Virus record (IMG/VR): IMGVR_UViG_3300013132_004522
Span: 1-39,518 of that record
From: a virus
Reading direction: 5' to 3' (one strand)
DNA length: 39,518 nucleotides
Below, piece by piece: positions 1 to 28,863 of the stretch. Position numbers and translations under genes: made by a program. Below the pieces are notes generated by a model. That model worked only from the letters and a program-made list of their open reading frames with translations. It had not been told where the DNA came from and made no database searches. The first letter of the stretch is position 1, and the number at the start of each line of letters is the position of its first letter.

Positions 1-3000
1 CTATAAAAGCTGGTAATGCTTTTAAGAGTTCGTCTAGTATAATGCGTAATACCGGCAAGATTTTTGGTAGTTTAGATATATCTTATTCGTCTTTAGCAAG
101 AGCGCTTGATGAATATAGTAGTATTCTTATCAATACTGGTCAACTAACAGTAGATCAAGAAAATTTGATGTATAGAGCATATGAAAAAGCTGCTAGAACA
201 GTAACCTCTACCGGCGATGTTAAGGCTATGATAGAGGCAGAAAAACAATGGGTAGCTGCTTTAAATAATGCAAAAAATAATATTGCTTCGTTAGGTACAG
301 GATCACCCTCGTCGCCACCATCATCTACATCACCTCCGTCACCACCATCACCACCATCACCTCCGTCACCACCATCATCTCCTTCACCATCATCACCTTC
401 TAGCAAGTCCGCACAAGGTGGTAATTTTGCTGATCAAATGCTTTATCTTGATAAAATAGCCTCCAAATTAGGAATAACTGTACAACAATACGAAAGAGCA
501 ATTAGACAACAAATCTTTAAGAAAGCGGAGAGTAATGTTACAGAAAAGAAGGGCGCACTAACTGATATTGAAGGATTATTAGTAAAAAATTTACAAAATA
601 TAGGCGATACCGAGGTAGAGACCGCAACCAGACAAGGATTAGCTGAACTATTTAGAAAGATTGATCCTAAAATAGATGATAAAAAATTAGGTAAAACTAT
701 AAACGAAATAATTTCTGGTATGCAAAAGGGCTTGTCTATTAGTGATTTAAGAAAAAGCTCTCAAGGATTAGATAAGATATTAAATGAAAATATAAATATT
801 TTATCTGAATTACCTGGTGCTCATGCTGAATTTGAAAAACAACTAGGTTTCTTAACGGGTAAAATGAAAGTAAGAGGAATAGACGTTAAGGCTCAAGAAT
901 CATTAAAGCAAGGTAAATTCGGAGCTTTAGAAAAGACTAATCTAAGACAAGCTCAAAGAAACTTAGAGTCTCCAACCGGACAAGTTTTAGACAGAATTGG
1001 AACAGCTAACAGTGCAGCAAATATTCCTGGAATGAAACTATTAGAAAAATCTTTTCCAAATGTTGCTGATAAAGTAACAAAGATGGGCGATAAGATTGGT
1101 GGTATCACTGGGATTATCGGAACAGGAGCCACGCTGCTTAGTTCGCAAATGCCAACTATTTTACAAACATTAGATAGATTTGCCGGAACAGTATCAGAGA
1201 CTAGTCCCGCATTATCTGGTCTTCAAGCAGCATTACAACAAGCCGGATCTTTTGGTTTAAGCGGATCAATTGCTGGTAAAGCTGCGTTCGGTAAAAAGGG
1301 TGCCGCTGTTGGAGGAGCAATAGGTCTAGTTGGTGGTGCGGTATCTGGTTTTATTCAAGAGTCTACAGCTAAAGAAGTTGAATTAGCAATGAAAGGAGTT
1401 AGTGGGGCATCCAATAATCTTAGTAAAACCTTAGATGATCTTGCTAATGCTAGAACATTAGGAGAAAGAGCAGAATTACAAGAAAGAGCAGCTAAAAATT
1501 ACCAAGCACTAAACGTAGCACTCGAACAATCTGCTAAAACTATTAAAGATAATAGGATATGGGATGGATTATCTAGTGGTCTTCAAGGATTTATGACAGC
1601 GCTTACATCATTAATAGGTATGATGGCAGCAGCTAATTTGGCTGGAGGAGCAGGAAGTATTAATTTTGGAGGAGGGGGTGGTGGCAAGCGTGGTGGTAGA
1701 GGACCAAGAAAAGCTTATGGTGGTAGAGTTGGGCTCGCTAGCGGAGGAATGGTTCCTGTTAAATTAGCAAGTGGAGAAGGAGTTTTTACTCCTCCATTAC
1801 CAGCTAGTATGGGGGAAATGAAAAAACTTAATAATGCTGATAGATCACCATTATCTAGTATGAACGGTCGAATAGGTATTGTTCCGGGATCTACTAATGG
1901 TAAGATAGATAACTTTGAAACTATGTTACCAGAAAATAGTTATGTTATTCGCGCTAGCTCTATGGAGGCTTTAGGCGAACAGCAAGTGCTTGCCTCTAGA
2001 GGAGGATCCATAGGAGTATCAAGATTATTTAATGGTGGACAACCCAAAAAATTGGCTAGAGGAGGTGGTGCAGGAGGAGGTAGAGCTGGTCAGATAATAT
2101 TCTTATTAAGTAGTTTAGTTAGTTTATACCAAGGAATATCTGGATTTTTTAACCCGTCTAATCAAGAGGCGCAATTACAGGCTGAATTAGCATCATTAGA
2201 ACAATTACGCAAAATAGCAGATAATAGTACAGCATTTGCTGTTGGTAATAAAGCATATTCTGAAAGACTTATGAAATTAAGTGATCCAATAGAATCATCA
2301 AATATGACCAATGAGGAAAAAAGAGCAGCTTATGGAAGATCTAGAAATAGGGATAATAGACTAAATGAACTAAATGTTTTACAAGAACAAGAAATGAGAA
2401 GCTCTCTGGGCGCAAGCGGAATGATTGTGAATGATCAACAAAGCGTACAAGACTATTTGGATACATTACAGGTTGGTTCGGATAAACGTAAAAAAGCAGA
2501 TGAAGCTATTGCAAAAGCGCAAAATAGATTAAGACAAAGAATTTATTTAGAAACTAGAATAAGAGAAGGTGCTGATATTACCACAGCACAAAAAGAATAT
2601 AGCGCAGCTTTCGACGAACAAGGTAATGTAAAAAATACAACCTATGCTAATAGAGTAACTGCTAGAACCGAAGATGTTATGGGTGGCGAAAATCGTAGTA
2701 GAGCTCTAGCAGACAGGCTCGAGTTTATCAATAGAAGTGTGAGAAAATTTACTCTTAATCTCACAGACGTAATGAATAGATTTTCTGCTAATATGTCTCG
2801 TATAGTTAGCGAAATAGATAATAATTTAACTATAGCAGATAATATCTCTGGAGAATTCTTTGGTTCTGGAGCTAGAGCTAACGAATCAGATAATAAGAAC
2901 GTGAGAGTTTTAGAAAATATTACAGCATATAGTCGTGAAGAATTAGGCTCTGTTGTAGATAGTATTAGTCAGAGCTTAGGTGGTGGCAAAGAAGCTCAAC

Positions 3001-6000
3001 AAATGGGTTCCTTTATTAAAGGATTACAGATTATACAACAAGAACTACCGCTTATTCTTAGAGATACGACAGGAGAAAATCTAGAAGCTGGAGAAGAAAC
3101 AGCGATAAGAGATAGATTAAAAAATATGTTTGAGGGTCTAGGTGATGTAGATATTGAGGGAAAACTTTCAGAAAGTATAATTGAATGGATAAAGGGAAGA
3201 ACAAATCTAAATGTACAGGGTGTGAGTAATGAAGAACTAGCAAGTCATATAGCTGGTTTTAAGGAAATCAGCGAAGCTGCAGAACAGGCTAGAGCAAAGT
3301 TTGAAGAGTATGCTAAAGCACAAGTAGAAATGAATCGTAAGTTAGGGGGCATATCCGATAAGTTAGCCGGCGCTTTTGATAAATTAGCAGACAACGCAAT
3401 CAAAGTATCAGATATAAACCTCCAATCCGCATTACAGCTTAAAGAAAAATTTAGTCAAACTATTTCTTTAAGAGAAATGAATGCTCCATTTGAAATTAGC
3501 ATTCGTGGTTTAACTGGAGGATTATCGGATCCTAATCTAATTGGTCAAGAAATAGCAAATGCTATCGCGCAAAAAAGAAAATTAGAGACTGATCCATCAA
3601 CATCAACAACCGCTTTAGGATCAGGGGAGATTGCTAAGTTAACATCTAAGATAAATAAATATCAAAGAGCACTAGATTCTTTAGCTAGTAATACCGATAA
3701 AGCATCTAATGCTATGAAAAAAATAGATGAACAATCTCAAATTAGTGCTGGTCGTCGTCGTAGTGTTATGGACTTTTTTGATATGATTGATGATCCAGAA
3801 GCTTTACTTAATTTTGCTAAAGAAACACAATCATACAATAGAGTTATGAGTGGGGCCGGTTCTTTATCTGATGTAAAAGGAGCAAAAGCTACACTACAAA
3901 GTTTGGAAGCTACTAGGTCTCCGGAAGAATTTGCTAAATTACAAGAAACATTTTTCAATAATGTTACTAATATGCTCGGTAATATGCCAGGAGCTGATCC
4001 CGCAGTATTTGATAAATTTAAACAAATGTTTGGACCAGATTTTGGTAAGCCGCAAGATAATCCTCAAATTAAACCTTTTATTGACGCTTTTAATCGAGCT
4101 GCTCAAATTCAATCTCGAGCTGTACAAGAACAATCAAGACTAATTACTGATGGTGCAACTGTATTGAAAAATACTTTATCAGCTAGTGCTAATGATTTTA
4201 CTAGTAAAATGAAAGTTGCTATAGATCAAATTGTTGCAAATTTGAATGGTGTTGCAAATAGACTAGGACTTGGCGGAGCGCCAGCGCCTGCTAGAGGCAG
4301 AGCGCCAGCGGCTGGCGGCGCTCCAGCGGCTGGCGGCGCTCCAGCGGCTGGCGGCGCTCCAGCGGCTGGCGGCGCTCCAGCGGCTGCTGGAGGCAGAGCT
4401 AAGGGTGGAATAGTTTATGCTAGTACTGGCACATTAGTAAACTTTGAGCCTAAAGGCACAGATACTGTACCAGCTATGTTAACTCGTGGTGAGTTTGTGG
4501 TTAATAGAGCAGCAACTTCTCGACATTTGCCATTATTACAAAGTATCAATAGTGGAACATATAGTAAAGGTGGGGCCGTCAAATATTTACAAACTGGTGG
4601 ACTTGTTGATGTATCTGGCATAAAACAGGATTATAGTACCGCATCAGAAAATCCAAAAACAATGATCGAACAAGATTTTAACAACATAATAGAAGGAGCT
4701 AAAAACGCATATAAAACTATAGAATTTGATGTAGATACTAATGGCTATAGAATACAAAAAGATTTAATGACACCCCCCGCAGGAGAATCCATAAACCATA
4801 CTTCTGCACCAGACTTTTTTAATGCATTAAAAACTTCTATAGGATCTAAAGATAGACTAAATAAACTTAATGTATATAAAGGAACTGATAAGCCAGCACC
4901 AACGATAGATTTTTTTGATTTAACACATTCTTTATCCAAAGATAAAAAAATGATTGGTGCTATTAATCCTTATTTAAATGATGATAGCTTATTAATTTGG
5001 AGGAGATGGCTTGGAACAAGATTTGATAAAACAAAATACGCTGGTCAGTTATTAGATGCTGAAGAAAGTATTCAAGGACTAACTCCAAAACTTGATTTTT
5101 ATCAAGATATTATGGATAAAAAACTAGAGGCCGAGAGTGGACTAAGAAAAGCTATGAGTACGGCTCCGGAGTTTGCTACACCTTCTGTGGATATTGATCC
5201 ATCTGGTATGGGCGCTGGATCAAATATGTCAGATACTACTATGACAAAAGCTAATTATCGTTATGAATTAGATAAATTAAATATTATTAAACAAAGAAAA
5301 AGAATAATAGATGGCTTGATAGAGCTAAGACCTTTACAACATGGATATATAGATTTGACCACAGAGGGCGAATTGCTTAAGATTTATACTGGTCAAGACC
5401 CTAATATTTTAATGACTCCCCGAGAGTCTAACATACGAGAGTATGGTAATAATATACAAAATTTGATAGATTTAGGTATATTACCAGAAGAAATTCTAGA
5501 TAAGGGTTGGGAAGATGGAATGAAACTAGGAGCTAAAAGAGCCTTAGTAGGATTAGCTACTTCGGTAGCTGTAGGTTTGGCTATACCAACAGGAGGAAGC
5601 TCATTAGCTCTATTAGCCGCAGGCTTGGGTGGTGGTGTTGTTGGTAGTATAGCTTTCGAAGCGGCTAATAATTATATGGAAGAAAAAAAATTACAAGAAT
5701 TATTAAATAGTAATGATCCTGAGAATTTTAAAAAGGGCAAGATACTGGAAGCATTATCAAAAAATCAAGCTTATGCTAGAACCAAAGAAACTGTTGCTAA
5801 TATGACAGAAAGTGTGGGTGTTGTGGCAGAAGCTGCTCCTGGTATTGCTAGTTTTTTAGCTCGCAAAGGATCAAAGTTATTTAGTAAAGTTGGTCTAAGA
5901 GGAAGAGTTGGAGCAGCTATGCCGAATAAGTTAAATACAAATATTCTTGATGATATTGATAATATTAGTATGGGTGATGCTGCAACTTCAGCCAAAGGAG

Positions 6001-9000
6001 AGACAGAGAGCATACTTGACACTGTGGCCGGTGGAGGGAGCCCGTCTCAGGCTCTTAGAGCAAAAGGGGGTACACCAATTGTAGCTACCGCTGAGAATAT
6101 TATGGATCTAAAACCACGACTTGGAGATGAGCTGTCACAAGCTTTTTCCGAGAAAGTAACAAAAGATAGCATATTCCAACAAATAAGAGATATAATGCAT
6201 ATGGTCGGCATAGATCCATCACAAGTGGATCGAGCTTTTGGGGCAAACTTTATGATAGAGATTCCAAAAGTCAGAGGTGGTTTAGCAAAACGCCTCAAAA
6301 ATAATGGTACAGAAATTTTCTTAGGAGAAGATAGTACGATGGGTCTGCTATTTCATGAAATGATACATGGAATGATGAATCAATTGAGAAATACGGATGC
6401 TGGAAAAGAAGCTCTTGGAAGATATTATCGTAATGTGACGACCATGTTTAGCAAGAATGACCACGTTGATCTTAATCTTCTTTTTGATGCTTGGAGTAAG
6501 ATTAAGAGAAAAACCTATGATTATGAAGATATCCTTTATGGAAAAGTATATAAAAACGCCATGATTCAGCGACTTATCAAAGATCCAAAAAAACTAAAAG
6601 CATTAGAAGACAGTGTTAATGGAGGTTATTTTGCACATCTCGATCCTGGTATTTCTACTATGGACGATTTATACAAATTTATTAGGAGACCAAAGAAATC
6701 AAATTCAATAGATACCAGATTAGACAACTATGCGTATACGCGAGATAGCATATTAGAGTTTTTGGGTGGAAGCTCCGATGATATAAATGCTTTAACACTA
6801 CAGGGTCAAGATGAGTTTTTGACAGAAATGATGCAAAGAGCACATATGCTTGATATAAATCAAAGAACAGTTCTTGACCTAATAGCACAAGATCTATTTA
6901 AGCCACTTGGTAGAAGTGCTCCGGACTCTCTAACACAAAGTTTAAAAACAGATCCTTTACAAACTTACCCTAACCCGCAAACACGATCCACGAGAAGAGG
7001 GAAAAAAGCACCAAAAAGACCTAATAAGGCAGACGAGACCGTTAAACCATCGGATAACGAAGGCACATTTGTGCCAGACGAAATATTGGACGATGCCCCA
7101 AGTACTCCCGCACCAAGATTACCCCGAGACAGTTCAGGTTCGGATCCATTTAGTGCGCCGGGACCATATCGAAGATCAATTCGGGATCTCATACCTTCAT
7201 ACGACACATTACTTGGTACAGGACAAGGATGGCCAGCGTTTCGTGAAACATGGCGAGACCGACTCGTGGGAGCTGGGGCTTTGACGAGTCTTGGCGGTTC
7301 CACGTTCGCTGGGATCGGCTACTTGTCATCGAGATTATTTGGTACTGAAGCTGTACCTCCAGAAATGTCGCCACCAGATCCAGGTACTGTACCATCAAGC
7401 GTTCCTATGCCTGGTTCTACACCTCCTGTTACGTCACCACCGGTTCCGGCGATACCAGTAGAGCCGGAAATGGCAGTAGCAGATCTAGCTAGGAGAATGT
7501 TTGAAACTACCGATGTTGCGTCTACAGGAGCTTTTGAAAGTAGAGATAAAAAGTATAATTTTGGACAAGTAAAAAATGCTACATCTTTAGGGCTTAAAGA
7601 TCCTCTTAATGTTACTAATTTTAGAGTACGTAAAGCTAAAATACCCACTAATGAAATTGGAATGAACGACGGAACTATAGATGACGAATTTCAAGAGCTT
7701 TTCCTATATAATCATCCTTTAGATACTTCTAAATTAAATCCTTTAAAAACATTTACAGATAAGAGCTTTGTTTATGGTAGTGAACAGGACTATACATCAA
7801 AAATAATTGGAGATACAAATAACGATATACAAGATTATTTAAAGAGATTTTTTCCAGGTGCAGGGAACATTGATGGTACTAATATAGATAATTTGATTAA
7901 AGATTTTGATCCAAATAAATTGAGCTTGAAATTTTTCTTCGACCGGGCTTTTATGGCGCAGGCTGGGAGTACTGTTTATGATTTATTAAAAATACCGAAT
8001 GCATATGTTAATCCTGATCTTATGAGTGATACTGATTGGGCAGCAAAGTTTGGTTTATGGGATATTAGCAAAGCAACAAAAGAGGATGGTGCCAATGATA
8101 AGTTTGGAAATACATATAAAAAATTCTTATTACAAAGAATTAACAAAGCATTATCATCACAAGCTAGTCAGGTTGCTCAGGAGCAGTATGAGTCTCCTAA
8201 AACAGAAGATAATTATAAACAGGCTATAAAATTTATTAGTGATTATACTGGACAGATGGATAGAAATATATATGGTAAAATTAATCCAGGATTTGGCGCA
8301 TTAAATATTGCTGAGCCCAATTCGCAGAAACCAGAAGACTATGCAAAAACTATTAATCAGCAAGTTAATAAATGGCGTCAAGATAATATAGATAAAGCTT
8401 TTGGAGGCATACCAAATACTGATCTAGATGGATGGACACGAGCTAAAAATAAGTATAATATTGATGGAGCTCCAGAAAAAGTAAGAGCTACTGTGCTAAG
8501 TGATGTTAATACTCTTCATAGAGCAAAAGCTTTAGATACTTTTATTATTAATAGTAATTTAGATCCCAGCAAAATTTTAGATTTAACTAGTGCTGCTAAT
8601 GTTATAGCAGGATCTAATACTGCTATGGGACCTTCTATTACTGGATTTATGGATAGTGAAGGAACCCCTCTTTCTGAAGATATGACCTTAGTAGATTTTA
8701 TTAAAGATAGTTTGAGTTTTACTAAAAACTTGAACTTTACTGATAGACAATCTAGACTAGACATGATTAGTAGCAAAGTACCTGAGCTGCAAAAAAGTTT
8801 TGATTTTGATAAGTTAAAAACACCATATGCACTATGGGATAGTTTAAATAGTTATATGGCTACGTTCTGGCCCGCCGCCGTCCCCAGCAACATCACCGGT
8901 GACCTATATACATCTCTAATCAATAGTAGCGGTGAACTAGAGTCAAAAGAGTATCAGTTTACTAATGAACCTGTAAATACTATATTAGGCTATGGTGTTA

Positions 9001-9869
9001 ATAGTACACCATATACAGCATCTATAACTAGCCCACTAGATTTTGTAAAAGAGTATACAAATTCTTTAAGTCGTTTGGGTGGTAGTGAGGCATATAATAA
9101 AATTCGTACAGTATTAGGATATCTAAAACAAACAGATATTCAAACAGCAGAAACTCCATTTAATAATCCTGCTTTTGTTGCTTCAAAGAAAGAAAAACAA
9201 ATGCAGGAAACTTCAACAGATCCGATTGAACCAATAACTAGAGCTAGAGGAGGTATGGTTTATGCTAGTAATGGAATGCTAGTTAATTATCAACCTCGTG
9301 GAACAGATACTATTCCGGCTATGTTAACTCGGGGCGAATTTGTTGTTAATAGAGCTGCTACTCAAAAGAATTTACCATTATTACAAAGTATTAATAGCGG
9401 AGTATCTTATGCTAGTTCTGGAGGAATAATTAATCCTATATATAGAGATAATGGCGGTAGTGGTATTATGGGATCGATACAATCAATGGCTAAATCTGTT
9501 GGTTTAGATATGAGTAGTGCTAGTTTGGTATTTGATACTTTTATTAAGTCATTTAATACTGAAACTAGTAATTTAGGATCATTAATTAATAATCTTGCTA
9601 AAGTATTTCCGGCTCTTGGTGGTCCTGTTAGTGCTTTTGGCGGTCATGTGGATAGACTTATCAAAGCATTAAATGATATTAAAACTATTGAAATCAAAGG
9701 TCCTAATATTCCAGATACTATTAGAATTAATAGTGATACTATAAGAGTTGAATTAATAGCGCCAGAAAATACAAATTATAAATTAAGTGATGAAGATAAA
9801 AAGGCTATTACTAATTCATTAACTACTTCATTAAGAGGATTGACTACTATGGGTAGAATAGTATCATAA
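1..9869 (+). CDS. Tail tape measure protein, 5'-partial, with embedded metallopeptidase-like domain
   Basis: This is a giant tail protein that probably sets tail length and leaves the tail with the DNA. The frame is open to the left edge: 13 codons precede the first visible ATG at 42 with no stop, so the true start lies outside the window and at least 3288 residues are encoded. Counting from the ATG at 42, there is a Pro-Ser tract (87-121), Gly/Ala-rich hydrophobic segments (about 348-370, 404-444, 513-560, 683-706), long helical stretches, and a Pro-Ala-Gly tandem tract (about 1412-1452). Two copies of a 51-residue motif containing GTDT(V/I)PAMLTRGEFVV lie at 1455-1505 and 3070-3120; this motif is common in tape measure proteins. 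A hydrophobic Gly-rich segment (1834-1875) precedes a region with HEMIH (2105-2109) and DEFLTE (2257-2261), resembling a zinc metallopeptidase. A second hydrophobic segment (about 2407-2435) and a Pro-rich linker follow. The tape measure call is firm; the peptidase function is inferred. Confidence 0.88.
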   Translation, partial: IKAGNAFKSSSSIMRNTGKIFGSLDISYSSLARALDEYSSILINTGQLTVDQENLMYRAYEKAARTVTSTGDVKAMIEAEKQWVAALNNAKNNIASLGTGSPSSPPSSTSPPSPPSPPSPPSPPSSPSPSSPSSKSAQGGNFADQMLYLDKIASKLGITVQQYERAIRQQIFKKAESNVTEKKGALTDIEGLLVKNLQNIGDTEVETATRQGLAELFRKIDPKIDDKKLGKTINEIISGMQKGLSISDLRKSSQGLDKILNENINILSELPGAHAEFEKQLGFLTGKMKVRGIDVKAQESLKQGKFGALEKTNLRQAQRNLESPTGQVLDRIGTANSAANIPGMKLLEKSFPNVADKVTKMGDKIGGITGIIGTGATLLSSQMPTILQTLDRFAGTVSETSPALSGLQAALQQAGSFGLSGSIAGKAAFGKKGAAVGGAIGLVGGAVSGFIQESTAKEVELAMKGVSGASNNLSKTLDDLANARTLGERAELQERAAKNYQALNVALEQSAKTIKDNRIWDGLSSGLQGFMTALTSLIGMMAAANLAGGAGSINFGGGGGGKRGGRGPRKAYGGRVGLASGGMVPVKLASGEGVFTPPLPASMGEMKKLNNADRSPLSSMNGRIGIVPGSTNGKIDNFETMLPENSYVIRASSMEALGEQQVLASRGGSIGVSRLFNGGQPKKLARGGGAGGGRAGQIIFLLSSLVSLYQGISGFFNPSNQEAQLQAELASLEQLRKIADNSTAFAVGNKAYSERLMKLSDPIESSNMTNEEKRAAYGRSRNRDNRLNELNVLQEQEMRSSLGASGMIVNDQQSVQDYLDTLQVGSDKRKKADEAIAKAQNRLRQRIYLETRIREGADITTAQKEYSAAFDEQGNVKNTTYANRVTARTEDVMGGENRSRALADRLEFINRSVRKFTLNLTDVMNRFSANMSRIVSEIDNNLTIADNISGEFFGSGARANESDNKNVRVLENITAYSREELGSVVDSISQSLGGGKEAQQMGSFIKGLQIIQQELPLILRDTTGENLEAGEETAIRDRLKNMFEGLGDVDIEGKLSESIIEWIKGRTNLNVQGVSNEELASHIAGFKEISEAAEQARAKFEEYAKAQVEMNRKLGGISDKLAGAFDKLADNAIKVSDINLQSALQLKEKFSQTISLREMNAPFEISIRGLTGGLSDPNLIGQEIANAIAQKRKLETDPSTSTTALGSGEIAKLTSKINKYQRALDSLASNTDKASNAMKKIDEQSQISAGRRRSVMDFFDMIDDPEALLNFAKETQSYNRVMSGAGSLSDVKGAKATLQSLEATRSPEEFAKLQETFFNNVTNMLGNMPGADPAVFDKFKQMFGPDFGKPQDNPQIKPFIDAFNRAAQIQSRAVQEQSRLITDGATVLKNTLSASANDFTSKMKVAIDQIVANLNGVANRLGLGGAPAPARGRAPAAGGAPAAGGAPAAGGAPAAGGAPAAAGGRAKGGIVYASTGTLVNFEPKGTDTVPAMLTRGEFVVNRAATSRHLPLLQSINSGTYSKGGAVKYLQTGGLVDVSGIKQDYSTASENPKTMIEQDFNNIIEGAKNAYKTIEFDVDTNGYRIQKDLMTPPAGESINHTSAPDFFNALKTSIGSKDRLNKLNVYKGTDKPAPTIDFFDLTHSLSKDKKMIGAINPYLNDDSLLIWRRWLGTRFDKTKYAGQLLDAEESIQGLTPKLDFYQDIMDKKLEAESGLRKAMSTAPEFATPSVDIDPSGMGAGSNMSDTTMTKANYRYELDKLNIIKQRKRIIDGLIELRPLQHGYIDLTTEGELLKIYTGQDPNILMTPRESNIREYGNNIQNLIDLGILPEEILDKGWEDGMKLGAKRALVGLATSVAVGLAIPTGGSSLALLAAGLGGGVVGSIAFEAANNYMEEKKLQELLNSNDPENFKKGKILEALSKNQAYARTKETVANMTESVGVVAEAAPGIASFLARKGSKLFSKVGLRGRVGAAMPNKLNTNILDDIDNISMGDAATSAKGETESILDTVAGGGSPSQALRAKGGTPIVATAENIMDLKPRLGDELSQAFSEKVTKDSIFQQIRDIMHMVGIDPSQVDRAFGANFMIEIPKVRGGLAKRLKNNGTEIFLGEDSTMGLLFHEMIHGMMNQLRNTDAGKEALGRYYRNVTTMFSKNDHVDLNLLFDAWSKIKRKTYDYEDILYGKVYKNAMIQRLIKDPKKLKALEDSVNGGYFAHLDPGISTMDDLYKFIRRPKKSNSIDTRLDNYAYTRDSILEFLGGSSDDINALTLQGQDEFLTEMMQRAHMLDINQRTVLDLIAQDLFKPLGRSAPDSLTQSLKTDPLQTYPNPQTRSTRRGKKAPKRPNKADETVKPSDNEGTFVPDEILDDAPSTPAPRLPRDSSGSDPFSAPGPYRRSIRDLIPSYDTLLGTGQGWPAFRETWRDRLVGAGALTSLGGSTFAGIGYLSSRLFGTEAVPPEMSPPDPGTVPSSVPMPGSTPPVTSPPVPAIPVEPEMAVADLARRMFETTDVASTGAFESRDKKYNFGQVKNATSLGLKDPLNVTNFRVRKAKIPTNEIGMNDGTIDDEFQELFLYNHPLDTSKLNPLKTFTDKSFVYGSEQDYTSKIIGDTNNDIQDYLKRFFPGAGNIDGTNIDNLIKDFDPNKLSLKFFFDRAFMAQAGSTVYDLLKIPNAYVNPDLMSDTDWAAKFGLWDISKATKEDGANDKFGNTYKKFLLQRINKALSSQASQVAQEQYESPKTEDNYKQAIKFISDYTGQMDRNIYGKINPGFGALNIAEPNSQKPEDYAKTINQQVNKWRQDNIDKAFGGIPNTDLDGWTRAKNKYNIDGAPEKVRATVLSDVNTLHRAKALDTFIINSNLDPSKILDLTSAANVIAGSNTAMGPSITGFMDSEGTPLSEDMTLVDFIKDSLSFTKNLNFTDRQSRLDMISSKVPELQKSFDFDKLKTPYALWDSLNSYMATFWPAAVPSNITGDLYTSLINSSGELESKEYQFTNEPVNTILGYGVNSTPYTASITSPLDFVKEYTNSLSRLGGSEAYNKIRTVLGYLKQTDIQTAETPFNNPAFVASKKEKQMQETSTDPIEPITRARGGMVYASNGMLVNYQPRGTDTIPAMLTRGEFVVNRAATQKNLPLLQSINSGVSYASSGGIINPIYRDNGGSGIMGSIQSMAKSVGLDMSSASLVFDTFIKSFNTETSNLGSLINNLAKVFPALGGPVSAFGGHVDRLIKALNDIKTIEIKGPNIPDTIRINSDTIRVELIAPENTNYKLSDEDKKAITNSLTTSLRGLTTMGRIVS
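4305..4386 (+). repeat. 18-bp tandem repeat inside the tape measure gene
   Basis: Four perfect copies of ccagcggctggcggcgct lie at 4305-4322, 4323-4340, 4341-4358 and 4359-4376, followed by a partial fifth copy to 4386. Each unit encodes Pro-Ala-Ala-Gly-Gly-Ala, giving a flexible linker just before the first 51-residue repeat of the tape measure. The unit is strongly GC-rich, unlike the surrounding AT-rich gene. Perfect identity at the DNA level suggests recent slippage-type expansion. Confidence 0.93.
4404..4556 (+). repeat. 51-residue repeat, copy 1 (tape measure)
   Basis: This in-frame 153-bp segment is repeated at 9249-9401. The two 51-residue copies match at 41 positions without gaps. 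The core is GTDTVPAMLTRGEFVVNRAA, preceded by GGIVYAS. Motifs of this kind recur in tape measure proteins of many tailed phages, often downstream of Gly-rich linkers. Their role is unknown. Confidence 0.9.
6030..6900 (+). other. Metallopeptidase-like region within the tape measure
   Basis: The segment is in frame inside the tape measure gene, and its limits are approximate. It encodes LLFHEMIHGM, an HExxH zinc-binding motif at residues 2105-2109 counted from the ATG at 42 (His codon at 6354). About 150 residues later, DEFLTEM (residues 2257-2262) could supply the third, glutamate ligand as in gluzincin-type peptidases. A Gly-rich hydrophobic segment lies upstream, and a hydrophobic segment plus Pro-rich linker lie downstream, which sets the region off from the coiled-coil parts. 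Tape measure proteins of some phages carry lysozyme or peptidase domains that act on the cell wall during DNA entry; that this is such a domain is inference. Confidence 0.55.
9249..9401 (+). repeat. 51-residue repeat, copy 2 (tape measure)
   Basis: This is the second copy of the segment at 4404-4556, with the same length and reading frame. The ten replacements are mostly conservative, such as Val/Ile, Lys/Arg and Phe/Tyr. It sits near the C-terminus of the tape measure, about 150 residues from the end. Confidence 0.9.
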
Positions 9870-17800: not shown

Positions 17801-18534
17801 GTTATGCTCCAGTTTGTACTATATCCTTTGATATTGTCAGGAATGTCATCAACCTTTTGTTGGTAAGATGATAATTCTCTTATAATAGATAGAGCATCCT
17901 GATGCAAGACATCTCTTACATTACCCTTTATTCCTAATTTATCGCATAAAGATATAACATTTATATCTAATCTTTTAGCTATAACATCTATAAAATTAAT
18001 TTGATTATTAGTAATTTTAGTAACATTATCTGAATGAATATCATCCTCTATATTTTCGGAAATTTCTTCAGCAGCAACAACCTTCCTCAATCTCATCGCC
18101 CTGCGTAAAGCCCTGCCCTCTGCCCTGGTTTCTGCAACGGCGACGGGGTGATTTCTATATACCTTATCACAGTTACCCCAATATACATCTGCTGATCCAT
18201 TTACTGTTTTTATCTTACATGATTCTGGAAGATCAGGATTATTGTCGTACCATGTCAAAGAATATACTACTGTTGCTCTTTTTTCATTAGATGGCTCAGG
18301 CGATTGCACAACGGTGCTATCATTTTGAATTACTATACCATTCATAACTTTTTCAAATACTCTTCTTAAACCATCGGTAGTTGGATTGCCTTTGATTTTT
18401 TCATCTTCGGATAATTCTGATAATACATAATCAGTCCATTCAATATCACTAATGTTCACTTTAGTTTTTGTTTGTGTATTTTCAACAATATCCGATTCTT
18501 CTGTAGTAGGTTCCATATTTTTAACCTTGGGCAT
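17797..18534 (-). CDS. Candidate single-strand annealing (Rad52/ERF-like) recombination protein
   Basis: The 245-residue protein has a disordered acidic/Thr N-terminus (1-30), a central domain (about 30-150) with beta strands around TVVYSLTWYD and VNGSADVYWG followed by a helix with AVAETRAEGRALRRAMRL (about 130-147), and a C-terminal helical module (about 168-230) beginning ITNNQINFIDVIAKRL. The Ala-Glu-x-Arg-Ala-x-Gly-Arg-Ala helix plus a C-terminal Thr/Gln helical module is the pattern of phage annealing proteins of the Rad52/ERF type; the match is by pattern only. AGGAG lies 6 bases before the ATG. The start overlaps the upstream nuclease gene by 14 bases. The phage also encodes a RecA-type recombinase, so an annealing protein would supplement it. 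Confidence 0.4.
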   Translation of the reverse strand: MPKVKNMEPTTEESDIVENTQTKTKVNISDIEWTDYVLSELSEDEKIKGNPTTDGLRRVFEKVMNGIVIQNDSTVVQSPEPSNEKRATVVYSLTWYDNNPDLPESCKIKTVNGSADVYWGNCDKVYRNHPVAVAETRAEGRALRRAMRLRKVVAAEEISENIEDDIHSDNVTKITNNQINFIDVIAKRLDINVISLCDKLGIKGNVRDVLHQDALSIIRELSSYQQKVDDIPDNIKGYSTNWSIT

Positions 18535-19321
18535 CTGAGTCTCCTATTTCTATAGTATTAGTTGTTTTGTCTTTTGTTAGTAATTGTATAGCATCTTTTA
18601 GATTATCACAGATTAATAATGCTCTTGCTTTTGAAAAGTCTTTGGTTTGTCTGATCCTAATAAGCTTATATCCCTTTCCGAGAATGAGTCCAGTTTTCTT
18701 TTTGTCATACGAGATGTTTTTGGCTAAAGCATCCTCTCCCCACACTGGGGCAAAATGGGATGGCCCATCTATTTCGATTGCTATATTTAGTGTTGGTAAA
18801 AATATATCTATTTGTAGTTTGGTATTAGCTAATATTTGTTCTTTATGAAATTCAGTTTTGAAACCATTATCTATTAGATAATTAAGTACAAAATGCTCTA
18901 ATTTGGAGCCAACTTTACTGGTTTTTCTAACCGCTAGATTAGCTTTTTGTAACATATTCATCTTTTCATCATCACTTTTTTGATCCCAAAGTTTTTGAGC
19001 GACTATTCTTTTTTGTTTGATTTGACTCTCATCCATACCCTCCCAACTCTTCATTACTCCTAGTCCTATATTTTGTTTTTCTTCTTCGGTTCTTATTTTA
19101 CCCTTTGTTGGGTGTTGTATTCTACCTGTTTGTAAAGCATTTTTTTGAGCCTCAGATTTATTCTTTCTTTTTATACCAAGTTTTTTAGCGTCTCTTAGTA
19201 TTTTGTTAGCATATGTATTATATTTGCTAGCAATATCCTTAAAACTTAAATTTTCTTCCCAATATAGTTTATTGATAAGATTTGCTTTGGCTTCATCGGA
19301 AAGATCATCATAGTTCTTCAT
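18521..19321 (-). CDS. Vsr/DUF559-like nuclease with HTH and NUMOD-like region, probable homing endonuclease
   Basis: The 266-residue protein has an N-terminal helix-turn-helix-like region (about 14-50), a helical linker (about 70-130) with GKIRTEEEKQNIGLGV that resembles the NUMOD3 DNA-binding motifs of phage homing endonucleases, and a C-terminal nuclease domain (about 138-235). That domain has Glu142, Asp172 in LQIDIFLP, and EIDGPSH (Glu183, Asp185, His189), followed by Lys207-209 and KLIRIRQ, the arrangement of Vsr-like/DUF559 PD-(D/E)XK enzymes. I infer a free-standing homing endonuclease. AGGG lies about 9 bases before the ATG. It overlaps the downstream gene by 14 bases, showing that it is embedded in the operon rather than loosely inserted. 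Confidence 0.65.
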   Translation of the reverse strand: MKNYDDLSDEAKANLINKLYWEENLSFKDIASKYNTYANKILRDAKKLGIKRKNKSEAQKNALQTGRIQHPTKGKIRTEEEKQNIGLGVMKSWEGMDESQIKQKRIVAQKLWDQKSDDEKMNMLQKANLAVRKTSKVGSKLEHFVLNYLIDNGFKTEFHKEQILANTKLQIDIFLPTLNIAIEIDGPSHFAPVWGEDALAKNISYDKKKTGLILGKGYKLIRIRQTKDFSKARALLICDNLKDAIQLLTKDKTTNTIEIGDSDAQG

Positions 19322-24506: not shown

Positions 24507-26111
24507 TTAAACTTGCCAACACTGCTTAATAATGAAAGTTTCTTTATCTTTAGATTTATCTAGTTTAATTAATAATGTGTTACCATCTATTAATAATTCT
24601 TTATATTTTAGGTATTCCTCTGGAAATATAACCAAATCGGCCGAACCTGTGGAATCCGTAACCTTAATAAACGCCATTTCTTGACCAGGATTAACTCCTC
24701 TTTTAGTCCTTATAACATTAATATCAGAAATCTCTGCGCCAAGAATTGGAATTTTCGTTTTAGTTCCGTGAGCTAAGTCTTTACACTCAACATTGGCCGA
24801 ATAAATATCACATCCGTCTATTTTATGGCAAGTGATAGAAGCTCCTAAATAGAATTTCTCATTATTAGACAGCCATTCGGGACTATCTTCCAAACTATAT
24901 GGTGGCTTTTTGATAGTATTAATTAATGATAGAATTGTTTGTTTTCTTTTTGCTGTTAATTTAATGTTAGTAGATTCCAATAATATGTGCAATATTTTTT
25001 CTAATTCTGTATTCTCAGAAATTTTCGATATAAATTCACATTCTCTATCAGTTAAATTATTTAGTATCTCATAATAGAATAGCATTCTAGTTCTGGATAC
25101 ATTCCCATTAGGTATCGCTCCGGAACATATTAATCCTTTACATGCTGTAGAATTAATATTTCTTAGAATATTACAATATACATATAGAAAAGTTTTATCT
25201 TTAATATCATAATTAGACAATATTTCATTTAACTTTTCATAAACAGAATCTCCTAATCCTTTGATATTAGTTAAGCCAAACCATATACTATTATCATGAT
25301 CAATAAAAAATTCTTTTTTAGGCTTTAATATCGATGGTAAATGTATACTAATATTCATTTCATTAGCATTACTAATAAGCTCTTGTATTTCTTTTAATGG
25401 ATCTATTTTATCCTTCGCAAATTTAAGATAAGAAGCAAAAAATTCAATAGGAAAATGAGCTTTAGTATATGCAGATAGATAGGCGTTGTATGCGTAACTT
25501 ACAGCATGACTCTTATTAAAAGAATATCTTTGGCTTTTCTCTATCCATCCAAACAACTCTTCGGATTCTGTTTTTGATAATATATTTGCTGCCTCTGATT
25601 TATGTAAAAATAACTTTTTAATTTTAACCATTTCTTCTGGTTTTTTCTTACCAATAGCTTTTCTTAACTGATCAGCTTCGGTCAAATCAAAGTTTGCTAT
25701 TTTTTGACAAATTTGCATAGCCTGTTCTTGATAGACCATTTCTCCATAAGTGGTACTCAAAATACTTTCTAGAGCAGGATGAAAGAAGTCGATTTCTTCA
25801 TTCTTATTTTTTTTGTCTATATAGTGATTACTAACAGACTTACCATCTCTATAGGCTTCCAGACATCCTGGTCTCATAATACTAATCAATGCGGACAGTT
25901 GTTCTATATTATCCGGCTTTAATTTTTTAGACATACTTTGACCAAGTCTAGACTCCAACTGAAAACATCCTTTTGTATTTCCTTCCGAAATCAGATTCCA
26001 TGTTCTGCGACAATTAAGATCTATATTTTCTATATCAATATCCAAATCAATTGTGGCTTCGTCGTTAAGACAAAACTTACAATTGCAGTCTTCAAATGTT
26101 ATCATTTTCAT
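24507..26111 (-). CDS. dnaE: DNA polymerase III alpha, C-terminal half (fingers, OB fold)
   Basis: The 534 residues match the second half of DnaE. After a Cys-containing N-terminus (CNCKFC, 9-14) come TKGCFQLESRLG, SALISIMRPG, GEMVYQEQAMQICQ, ADQLRKAIGKKKPEEM and YSFNKSHAVSYAYNAYLSAY, the finger-domain signatures that bind incoming dNTP and template. A helix-hairpin-helix-like stretch (FGLTNIKGLGDSVYEKL) and a C-terminal OB-like domain with GVNPGQEMAFIKVTDSTGSA follow. The catalytic Asp residues are in the other half at 26968-28863. Together the halves have 1165 residues, about the length of a whole DnaE. The ATG overlaps the upstream exonuclease stop as ATGA, so both are co-translated. It must pair with the N-terminal half; no intein motifs are seen. 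Confidence 0.88.
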   Translation of the reverse strand: MKMITFEDCNCKFCLNDEATIDLDIDIENIDLNCRRTWNLISEGNTKGCFQLESRLGQSMSKKLKPDNIEQLSALISIMRPGCLEAYRDGKSVSNHYIDKKNKNEEIDFFHPALESILSTTYGEMVYQEQAMQICQKIANFDLTEADQLRKAIGKKKPEEMVKIKKLFLHKSEAANILSKTESEELFGWIEKSQRYSFNKSHAVSYAYNAYLSAYTKAHFPIEFFASYLKFAKDKIDPLKEIQELISNANEMNISIHLPSILKPKKEFFIDHDNSIWFGLTNIKGLGDSVYEKLNEILSNYDIKDKTFLYVYCNILRNINSTACKGLICSGAIPNGNVSRTRMLFYYEILNNLTDRECEFISKISENTELEKILHILLESTNIKLTAKRKQTILSLINTIKKPPYSLEDSPEWLSNNEKFYLGASITCHKIDGCDIYSANVECKDLAHGTKTKIPILGAEISDINVIRTKRGVNPGQEMAFIKVTDSTGSADLVIFPEEYLKYKELLIDGNTLLIKLDKSKDKETFIIKQCWQV

Positions 26112-26806
26112 ACTTTAAAAGCATCCTTAAATTTTATTTTTTGACTTAATTTTTTATGTAGTCTTAGAAATCTGATAAGAATATTGGCACAATCTTCCAC
26201 ATCCTTAGATGCATTATGGGCATTTGTTTTATCTATACCAAGATAGTCTCTCATACTATCTAATGATAATCCCTTAACATCGGATATATAGCTCATCCAT
26301 ATGCCAAAAAGATGCATAATATCTATTTTGTCTCTTGGATGAAATAAACAGGTTTCTTTCTCTTTATTAGTATTATTATACTTATTACTGAGTCTATTAA
26401 CAATAGACATATCAAAACGCAATATGTTATATCCTGCCGCAATTGGGGCTGTAAACTGAGATTTTTTTCCGCCATTAGACTTTAGGTGATATTTATCTAA
26501 ATAACTAACAAACTGAGCCCATGCATATTTTTGTTCCGGATATGTTTTCCACTCAGATAAAATCTGATCAGACGACAAATTACGAATTTTTCCATGCCAT
26601 TCCAAAATATCCGAATCAGTGTATGGATTCTCTACTGTAGCATCCATTAATTTTTCAGGCTTCAAAAAAGTATTGAATTCTGATTTGGGAATAATTTCTA
26701 GTCTGATTGGGTCTATAATCACAGCAGATAATTGCACAGGACTACATTCTTCCGGATTTTTTCCATCAGTCTCAAAATCGAAAACGCAAATTTTGTTATT
26801 AATCAT
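26108..26806 (-). CDS. DnaQ-like DEDDh 3'-5' exonuclease (proofreading)
   Basis: The 232-residue protein has the DEDDh exonuclease motifs: FDFETDG with Asp10 and Glu12, a middle motif in GYNILRFDMS (about 115-125), and AHNASKDVED with His197 and Asp202. It removes mispaired 3' nucleotides and, placed between the two halves of polymerase III alpha, most likely serves as the phage epsilon-like proofreader. GGAGGT lies 8 bases before the ATG. It overlaps the preceding small gene by 8 bases and the following polymerase gene as ATGA. An RNase T or other DnaQ relative is possible from sequence alone, but context favours proofreading. Confidence 0.88.
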   Translation of the reverse strand: MINNKICVFDFETDGKNPEECSPVQLSAVIIDPIRLEIIPKSEFNTFLKPEKLMDATVENPYTDSDILEWHGKIRNLSSDQILSEWKTYPEQKYAWAQFVSYLDKYHLKSNGGKKSQFTAPIAAGYNILRFDMSIVNRLSNKYNNTNKEKETCLFHPRDKIDIMHLFGIWMSYISDVKGLSLDSMRDYLGIDKTNAHNASKDVEDCANILIRFLRLHKKLSQKIKFKDAFKV

Positions 26807-26978
26807 TCGTTACTACCTCCACTTGGGATTTGTATTCGAAAAGTATTTCTTTATTATCTCTTAATCTTATAGCATTAGCTTCTATTTTACAGCATGATTT
26901 TTTAATCTCTGGTATTTTTAAGTATTCTTCTTGGTTATATACGAATCTCTGTCCAGCAATAATTTTTTCAAACAGCAT
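26799..26978 (-). CDS. Small 59-residue protein between the polymerase halves
   Basis: This short frame encodes MLFEKIIAGQRFVYNQEEYL at its start, then KIPEIKKSCCKIEANAIRL and a polar end. The order (FEKI..G..F.Y....Y.KI) looks like a small SH3-like or beta-barrel protein seen as short genes near phage replication genes; no function is known to me. AAGGAT lies 6 bases before the ATG. It overlaps the polymerase N-terminal half by 11 bases and the exonuclease by 8, so it fills the space exactly, which supports a real gene. Confidence 0.75.
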   Translation of the reverse strand: MLFEKIIAGQRFVYNQEEYLKIPEIKKSCCKIEANAIRLRDNKEILFEYKSQVEVVTND

Positions 26979-28863
26979 CTTTTATCCTTTTGTTTTTAAG
27001 AATATCTCTCACACACATAATTTTATCTAATAGTGCTATTCCTAGAATATCAAATTTAATTACTCCTATAGATTCTAAATCCGACATTTCAAAGCCAGCA
27101 ATACTTTGTTCTGTTTTGGCGTCCCAAATCATAGGACAAATAGTATTTAAGGATTGGTTTGAGATCGCTATGCCAGCAGCGTGTTTAGATTGATTGTACT
27201 TCGAGCCCTCGAGTCTAATAGCCTGCTCAAAACGCTTCGCCAGCGGCCCGTATAACTCATTGTCCTCTCCCACATAGCACCATTCTTTGAGTTTTGCTCC
27301 ATTGTTTTCTAGAGCCCACCTAATAATAGACGCTTCTCCATCTTCATCTTTCATTTCTTGTAACTCATCCGCTATTTTAGCTTCGTCCGGAATATGTTTT
27401 GTAATACGATTCATTTCTTCGAATGATATATTTCCATATATTCTTAATACTTCTTTTAGAGCACCACGACCCTTTAAAGTATTGAATGTAATCATTTGAG
27501 AAACTTTATCAAAACCATACTTATTTTTTATGTAGTTTATAATATCTTCTCTATGTTCTATTGGTACGTCTACATCTATATCAGGCATAGATATATGAGT
27601 TTCGGTATTACGACCAGTATTATAGAATCTTTCGAAGATCAAATCATATTTAATAGGATCTATACCGGTTATACCTATTAGGTAAGAAACTAAACATCCG
27701 GCAGCAGAGCCTCGTCCCGGTCCAGGTAAACATCCCTTACTTCTTACATAGGATACTATATCTCTAATTATAAGAAAGTAACTAGCTAAATTTGTTGATT
27801 CAAGAATATCTAATTCTTTTTTTACTCTATCTACATATATGTTCTGTTTTTCTTTTGGAATCTTATTTTGTATTTTATCTAACCAACCTTTTCTACAAAG
27901 ATTTCTAAGGTATTCGATTGGTTTTTGTGAATCAGGACAATCAAATGTTGGTAATTGAGGTCCAGATAGTACATCATACTCTTCACATAAACTATCTATA
28001 TATAGAGTATTTTCTAATTCAACGCTATCGTGTATGACTTGCATTTCTTCATCAGATAGTATATAGTATTTATCTGATGTAAAAAAACTAGATAATGGAA
28101 TCTTTTCATTATTAATGATCTTATTCGATATATCTGGTAAAGTTAATTTCAAAGAACTACACAAAAGTACTCTTTGATCAACAGCGTCGGAGGCTTCGCA
28201 ATAATGCGCATCAATAGTAGCAACTCTTGGTAGATTATAATCTTTGGATAATTGTCTAAGACTGTTTCCTATTAATTGTTGTTGCTGATTGTTAGTATCC
28301 ATAAGTTGGATTTCAACAAAAACATTGTTTTGACCAAAGATATCATACAATTTATTTATATGCTCTAGACTTTTAGTTTCCCAATTTTCGTTTACTTTTC
28401 CTAGATCAAAATTATAGACTATGTCTCCTAATGTTGAACCCGGATGTCCAGTGATACATATCAAATCATTTTTTTCTGATCCTAGAATATTATTTATCAA
28501 TTCCAGATCAAGTCTTGGCTTATAATAAAAATAATCAGAACTATTTGATACGGATACTAGTTTGATAAGCTTTTGCCAACCGCTAAAATTTTTAGCTAAA
28601 ACTACCATATGAGATAATTCACTATTTGATTTATCTTTGATCTTGGCATCACTATTACTAATATATAATTCACATCCCATAATTGGCTTAATATTATTCT
28701 TTTTCATTGTTTTGTAAAAACTAATATTGCCAGAGATTGTGCCGTGATCGGTTATAGCACAACTTGTAATACCTAATCTTTTACATCTCCTTGCCACCTG
28801 TTCTGGTTTTGATAAGCCATCAAGTAAACTATAATGAGTGTGTAAATGTAGGGGAACGTACAT
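26968..28863 (-). CDS. dnaE: DNA polymerase III alpha, N-terminal half (PHP and palm)
   Basis: The 631 residues cover the first half of DnaE. The PHP domain (1-270) has HLHTHYSLLDG (His6, His8, His10), TDHG (Asp39, His40), GCE (Glu65), GHPGS and DAHYC, so the metal-binding residues look intact, unlike in E. coli. The palm has GPGRGSAAG, MPDIDVD with catalytic Asp428 and Asp430, and IKFDILG with Asp605. The chain stops about 25 residues after that third Asp, exactly where the finger domain should begin; that part is encoded at 24507-26111. The ATG overlaps the upstream nuclease stop as ATGA. It would synthesise phage DNA when joined with the other half. Confidence 0.9.
   Translation of the reverse strand: MYVPLHLHTHYSLLDGLSKPEQVARRCKRLGITSCAITDHGTISGNISFYKTMKKNNIKPIMGCELYISNSDAKIKDKSNSELSHMVVLAKNFSGWQKLIKLVSVSNSSDYFYYKPRLDLELINNILGSEKNDLICITGHPGSTLGDIVYNFDLGKVNENWETKSLEHINKLYDIFGQNNVFVEIQLMDTNNQQQQLIGNSLRQLSKDYNLPRVATIDAHYCEASDAVDQRVLLCSSLKLTLPDISNKIINNEKIPLSSFFTSDKYYILSDEEMQVIHDSVELENTLYIDSLCEEYDVLSGPQLPTFDCPDSQKPIEYLRNLCRKGWLDKIQNKIPKEKQNIYVDRVKKELDILESTNLASYFLIIRDIVSYVRSKGCLPGPGRGSAAGCLVSYLIGITGIDPIKYDLIFERFYNTGRNTETHISMPDIDVDVPIEHREDIINYIKNKYGFDKVSQMITFNTLKGRGALKEVLRIYGNISFEEMNRITKHIPDEAKIADELQEMKDEDGEASIIRWALENNGAKLKEWCYVGEDNELYGPLAKRFEQAIRLEGSKYNQSKHAAGIAISNQSLNTICPMIWDAKTEQSIAGFEMSDLESIGVIKFDILGIALLDKIMCVRDILKNKRIKDAV

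Follow-up and report, generated by a model that had tools for sequence, protein, structure and literature searches.

A zincin-like domain as candidate exchangeable cargo in the giant tape measure protein of an uncultured phage

The window considered here (the whole stretch of 39,518 nucleotides that was analysed, a 39.5 kb record of virus DNA with a GC content of 33%) encodes a giant tape measure protein containing a domain that looks like a zincin metallopeptidase, with an HExxH motif in one helix and a conserved Glu in a later helix, and that is best read, by comparison with related sequences, as exchangeable cargo. The best explanation for the region, which in our judgement stands about an even chance of being correct, is that it encodes an injected effector protease. 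On this account, the giant tape measure has a slot for exchangeable cargo, which would here be occupied by a zincin-type zinc metallopeptidase; the tape measure runs along the tail interior; on its exit from the tail at infection, a hydrophobic segment located before the slot would insert into the host envelope and display the protease to the host; and the protease would then cleave a host protein, e.g. one involved in defence or regulation, at the very onset of infection. Zinc binding and catalysis, as well as delivery, membrane side and target, are what we infer in this scheme.

The open reading frame concerned runs from 3 to 9869 on the forward strand (as do all features given below unless stated otherwise), open from base 3 and with its 5' end cut off by the start of the contig; counted from the ATG at 42, which is the numbering used here, ORF 42-9869 comprises 3275 residues. 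It is identified as a phage tape measure protein by matches of two PHROG tape-measure families to its C-terminal part (aa 3086-3128; E 1.3e-7 and 5.9e-6), by matches to phage proteins annotated as tape measure, and by the long orthologue L083, which has 4,293 residues and which, from its own residue 942 onward, aligns with window residues 123-2286 at 41% identity. Since the frame shows no stop before base 3, and since 941 additional residues of L083 precede the point where the alignment begins, the contig begins inside the gene; the ATG at 42, which an earlier, sequence-only reading had taken as the start codon, is probably internal rather than the true start, and the residue numbers are therefore arbitrary. 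The N-terminal domain PhageMin_Tail (PF10145) is absent from the window, whose contig begins inside the gene, and is present in 8 of 18 related tape-measure pieces. Two further landmarks are a first GTDTVPAMLTRGEFVVNR motif (4455-4508; aa 1472-1489), of a kind common to giant tape measures, and a second GTDTIPAMLTRGEFVVNR motif (9300-9353; aa 3087-3104). Ser-Pro-rich and Gly-Ala-Pro repeats within the tape measure (303-404 and 4281-4394) may be variable linkers.

Elsewhere in the window, a DNA polymerase III alpha subunit (24507-28863, reverse strand) looks, when read by eye, to be split into two ORFs, 26968-28863, which has the PHP start, and 24507-26111; a DnaQ-like exonuclease ORF (26108-26806), also read by eye, lies between the two alpha subunit ORFs. 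There is in addition an HNH/homing endonuclease-like ORF at 18521-19321 on the reverse strand (phrog_559, E 4e-16).

The sequence-only reading had noticed HEMIH within the tape measure and DEFLTEM downstream, and both are located as it said. HEMIH, an HExxH motif of which H, E and H are invariant, lies at 6354-6368 (aa 2105-2109), and is the only HExxH in ORF 42-9869; DEFLTEM begins at nt 6810 (aa 2257-2263), and the EFLT within it (6813-6824; aa 2258-2261) contains the invariant E2258. From the pattern of conservation we infer a metal site consisting of H2105, H2109 and E2258, with E2258 as the candidate third metal ligand. The zincin-like domain as a whole (about 6105-6923; about aa 2022-2294) is defined by homology to 17 non-redundant tape-measure domains and by purifying selection. 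The family was built from a first alignment with other tape-measure domains, followed by a scan that returned 18 loci; with a frame-shifted copy (L036) excluded, it comprises 17 non-redundant relatives plus the window, i.e. 18 aligned members. Invariant across all of these are the L, H, E and H of LxHExxH, a second conserved motif Y-x3-D-x2-YG-x2-YK (invariant columns at 6516-6554; aa 2159-2171), and EFLT with E2258, H2105, E2106, H2109 and E2258 each being kept in 18/18. A homologue of the domain lacking the motif, which the sequence-only reading had named among the things that would tell against it, was thus not found among the members, yet there are orthologous tape measures from which the domain is missing altogether. 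Low dN/dS values in close homologue pairs (0.07-0.17, as compared to 0.26-0.37 for pairs with L094) indicate that the domain is maintained by purifying selection.

All 17 relatives come from uncultured phages, where they lie inside giant tape-measure ORFs of 3,038-6,171 aa, and a GEFV-type tape-measure motif is present in the covered stretch of the ORF in 15 of the 17. No relatives were found in phage records when the L007 member was used as query, nor in bacterial genome contigs by scan, nor were close relatives found by a single-sequence pattern scan. The position of the family within the tape measure varies: the domain lies at residue 886 of 4,525 in L085 and at residue 2,022 of 5,669 in L091, such positions being affected by the fact that some of the relatives' ORFs are cut by locus ends. 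In the excluded copy (L036, on a contig shared with L087 and L104) a frameshift near 7010-7020 breaks the zincin frame, while the near-identical copy in L083 is intact, so that this may be either a sequencing error or decay.

As regards the fold, AlphaFold models of the full and of a trimmed domain gave mean pLDDT values of 65 and 73 and pTM values of 0.59 and 0.70 respectively. In the second model HEMIH falls in a predicted helix (57-73; pLDDT about 81-85), and E2258 falls in a separate predicted helix (203-223; pLDDT about 92); the N-terminal beta-lobe, where a zincin would have a three-stranded sheet ahead of the active-site helix, is of low confidence, appearing as one hairpin in the first model and not at all in the second. 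As to the structure check that had been proposed, the models place HEMIH on a helix within a compact, helical domain, but no zincin was matched in the fold searches. Foldseek (against PDB and BFVD) and VIA-align, run on these partly confident models, listed only helical look-alikes and no zincin, the best fold match (Z 4.2) being to an unrelated protein. This lack of a fold match is no evidence for a new fold.

Family searches gave a similar picture. Pfam, NCBIfam and PHROGs, searched with the whole protein, yielded no zincin family, no curated family matched the domain above its cut-off, and sequence searches of the PDB gave chance matches only; a weak match to DUF4362 (E about 0.04) was rejected, being below cut-off and within a less conserved stretch. 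Among the 18 members, the sub-threshold Pfam matches include four zincin families (M91, M57, SprT and M78), which may reflect only the motif itself. The likeness to Peptidase_M91 (PF14891) consists of weak matches in two homologues over the HExxH part (E 0.012 and 0.13), but these score 16.4 and 13.0 against a curated cut-off of 25 bits, and the window itself has no match. MPTase-PolyVal (PF18818) does not appear when the matches of the 18 members are taken down to E<=1, and 12 related records likewise gave no match to it; the eCIS core domain DUF4157 (PF13699) matched neither the window nor its homologues.

The sequence-only reading had taken the region to be an inserted domain bounded by hydrophobic segments and a Pro-rich linker. 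Upstream there is indeed a clear hydrophobic segment (5541-5666; aa 1834-1875; Kyte-Doolittle up to 1.82), at the position of which the orthologues are likewise hydrophobic, and beyond the domain come Pro-rich linkers (aa 2309-2375 and 2439-2475, within 6966-7466), but the downstream hydrophobic segment, which lies between the two linkers (aa 2408-2433), is weak (1.2). The insertion itself is borne out both by the homologues, which keep the three motif residues and the downstream Glu, and by the orthologues, whose slot holds something else. Five orthologous tape measures (those of the window, L083, L005, L103 and L106) share the flanks of the slot and the C-terminal region, the last 200 window residues being 67% identical in L005 and 65% in L083. 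The slot contains the zincin in the window and L083, an HPD-bearing J-like module in L005 and in L106/L107, and only a low-complexity linker in L103. Because orthologues keep the flanks without the domain, the zincin is dispensable for the tape measure, for tail length and for assembly. The name J-like rests on the HPD motif, the match to Pfam DnaJ being weak in L106 (E 0.086) and absent in L005; in both, the final two GEFV motifs enclose the slot, and in L005 the module is at residue 4251.

Other modules occur in related tape measures. A separate HExxH group, with an invariant H-E-H-Y-E, is found in L013, L021, L031, L042 and L060; profile-profile comparison of this group with the window zincin gave a match (probability 42%) that is short and confined to the surroundings of HExxH, so that it does not establish the two as a single family. 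Further HExxH domain groups occur in L017, L024, L029, L032 and L040, some tape measures having two per protein, and two members of another tape-measure zincin group have a weak DUF4157 match (E 0.12). The L005 tape measure (L005:2864-20428) contains an ADP-ribosyltransferase exoenzyme domain at residues 720-812 (PF03496, E 2e-7). It also has a HAD phosphatase-like stretch (DFDETL, TARPQ, LIDDN; residues 1265-1387) that recurs in many related tape measures and has no Pfam match. EF-hand Pfam matches were seen in 3 of 17 related tape-measure pieces (alignment A9; best E 2.6e-6), and EF-hand-like paired DxNxDG loops were recognised by pattern in L003, L004, L030, L043 and L088.

The main rival, conceivable though rather unlikely, is that the zincin cuts its own tape measure, either at assembly or after entry, and so releases adjacent cargo or the part that sets tail length. 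For polyvalent proteins, a role of zincins in separating the constituent parts has been proposed by Iyer et al. (2017; PMC5512222); in the present case the adjoining flexible Pro-rich linkers would make plausible cleavage sites, several possible cargo modules are present in some tape measures, and orthologues without the domain would also fit a protease needed by some phages only. However, one would expect conservation if the role in processing were a general one, and such a role is disfavoured because the L005 tape measure, which is longer and bears the ADP-ribosyltransferase, has zero HExxH; L103 and L106 are also without HExxH in the stretch read.

An enzyme that acts on the cell envelope, cleaving an envelope protein or peptidoglycan cross-bridges to open a path for the DNA, seems improbable, given that those tape-measure metallopeptidases that cut peptidoglycan are mostly of the M23 type, without HExxH, that no peptidoglycan family was matched, and that orthologues manage without the domain. 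What would favour such an enzyme is that metallopeptidase domains are reported to be characteristic of many tape measures, for example that of phage P23-45 (PMC10770324).

Slightly less probable again is a zincin fold without catalytic function, for instance a packing or chaperone module comparable to the HExxH-bearing DUF4157 of eCIS cargo. DUF4157 does provide a precedent from tail-like injection machines (PMC11297309), where in one effector the metalloprotease motif of this domain was found to be dispensable, and the other module seen in the slot resembles a J-domain and is in that sense related to chaperones; however, the catalytic Glu is invariant here, and a role in binding only would not require it. 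The reading of HExxH as a chance motif within a structural, helical portion of the tape measure, which the mostly helical models with no zincin match might favour, is very improbable and is strongly disfavoured, since the motif is invariant across members only about 20-28% identical to the window, shuffled copies of the window protein (composition kept) contain any HExxH in just 0.3% of trials, and 77 related tape-measure ORFs (250,520 residues) contain 17 HExxH, where shuffling gives 0.23 on average and 3 at most, an excess that stays large even though overlap and near-identity among some of the ORFs lower the effective number.

Returning to the injected effector protease, several of its elements are already known separately: polyvalent zincins (PMC5512222), enzyme-fused tape measures (PMC10770324), and, in bacterial injection systems, tape-measure-derived effectors with variable domains (PMC13277306). 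In the polyvalent proteins of phages and plasmids, which are thought to be injected, zincins are the commonest domain; the zincin HExxH lies in one helix, and a Glu follows in another helix further on (PMC5512222). The polyvalent MPTase (PF18818) thus resembles the present domain in both helices and in being part of phage proteins of very large size and many domains, ART domains among them; it differs in that the carrier here is a tape measure, a term absent from the main text of PMC5512222, and in that PF18818 gave no match. The gp96 protein of phage P23-45 is likewise a giant tape measure, 5,002 aa long, to which an enzyme is fused and which has a metallopeptidase domain, but the fused enzyme is an RNA polymerase, and the passages of PMC10770324 considered mention no exchangeable slot. 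Sle1-type effectors of actinobacterial contractile injection systems are related to tape measures and have a functional domain that varies among relatives and can be swapped, but they belong to a bacterial injection particle rather than a phage, and the abstract of PMC13277306 names no zincin. Finally, DUF4157 is an HExxH domain of proteins loaded into phage-tail-like machines (PMC11297309), unlike the window domain in that the latter does not match it. In the open-licence literature no description was found of HExxH zincins as exchangeable cargo of phage tape measures.

Because exchangeable, conserved, enzyme-like modules sit in a protein that exits the tail during infection, the cargo would be delivered with the DNA, and the sequences suggest swappable enzymes that are loaded into tails and delivered together with phage DNA. 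More broadly, it seems to us an evenly poised proposition that this uncultured large-phage lineage uses its tape measure as a modular effector carrier, in which a defined slot (hydrophobic segment plus Pro-rich linkers) may hold a zincin, a J-like module or only a linker, while an ADP-ribosyltransferase and further zincins are carried elsewhere, making it a phage counterpart of the polymorphic-toxin architecture that delivers enzymes with DNA. The finding of a zincin, a J-like module or nothing in the slot of orthologues makes the cargo idea testable among close relatives. If it is true, the tape measure would, besides acting as a ruler and as a conduit for DNA, serve as a delivery vehicle, with a payload exchanged between related phages; each tail would bring a few enzyme copies to the site of entry before any phage gene is read, and giant tape measures could be searched for new enzymes that act early against the host or its defences.
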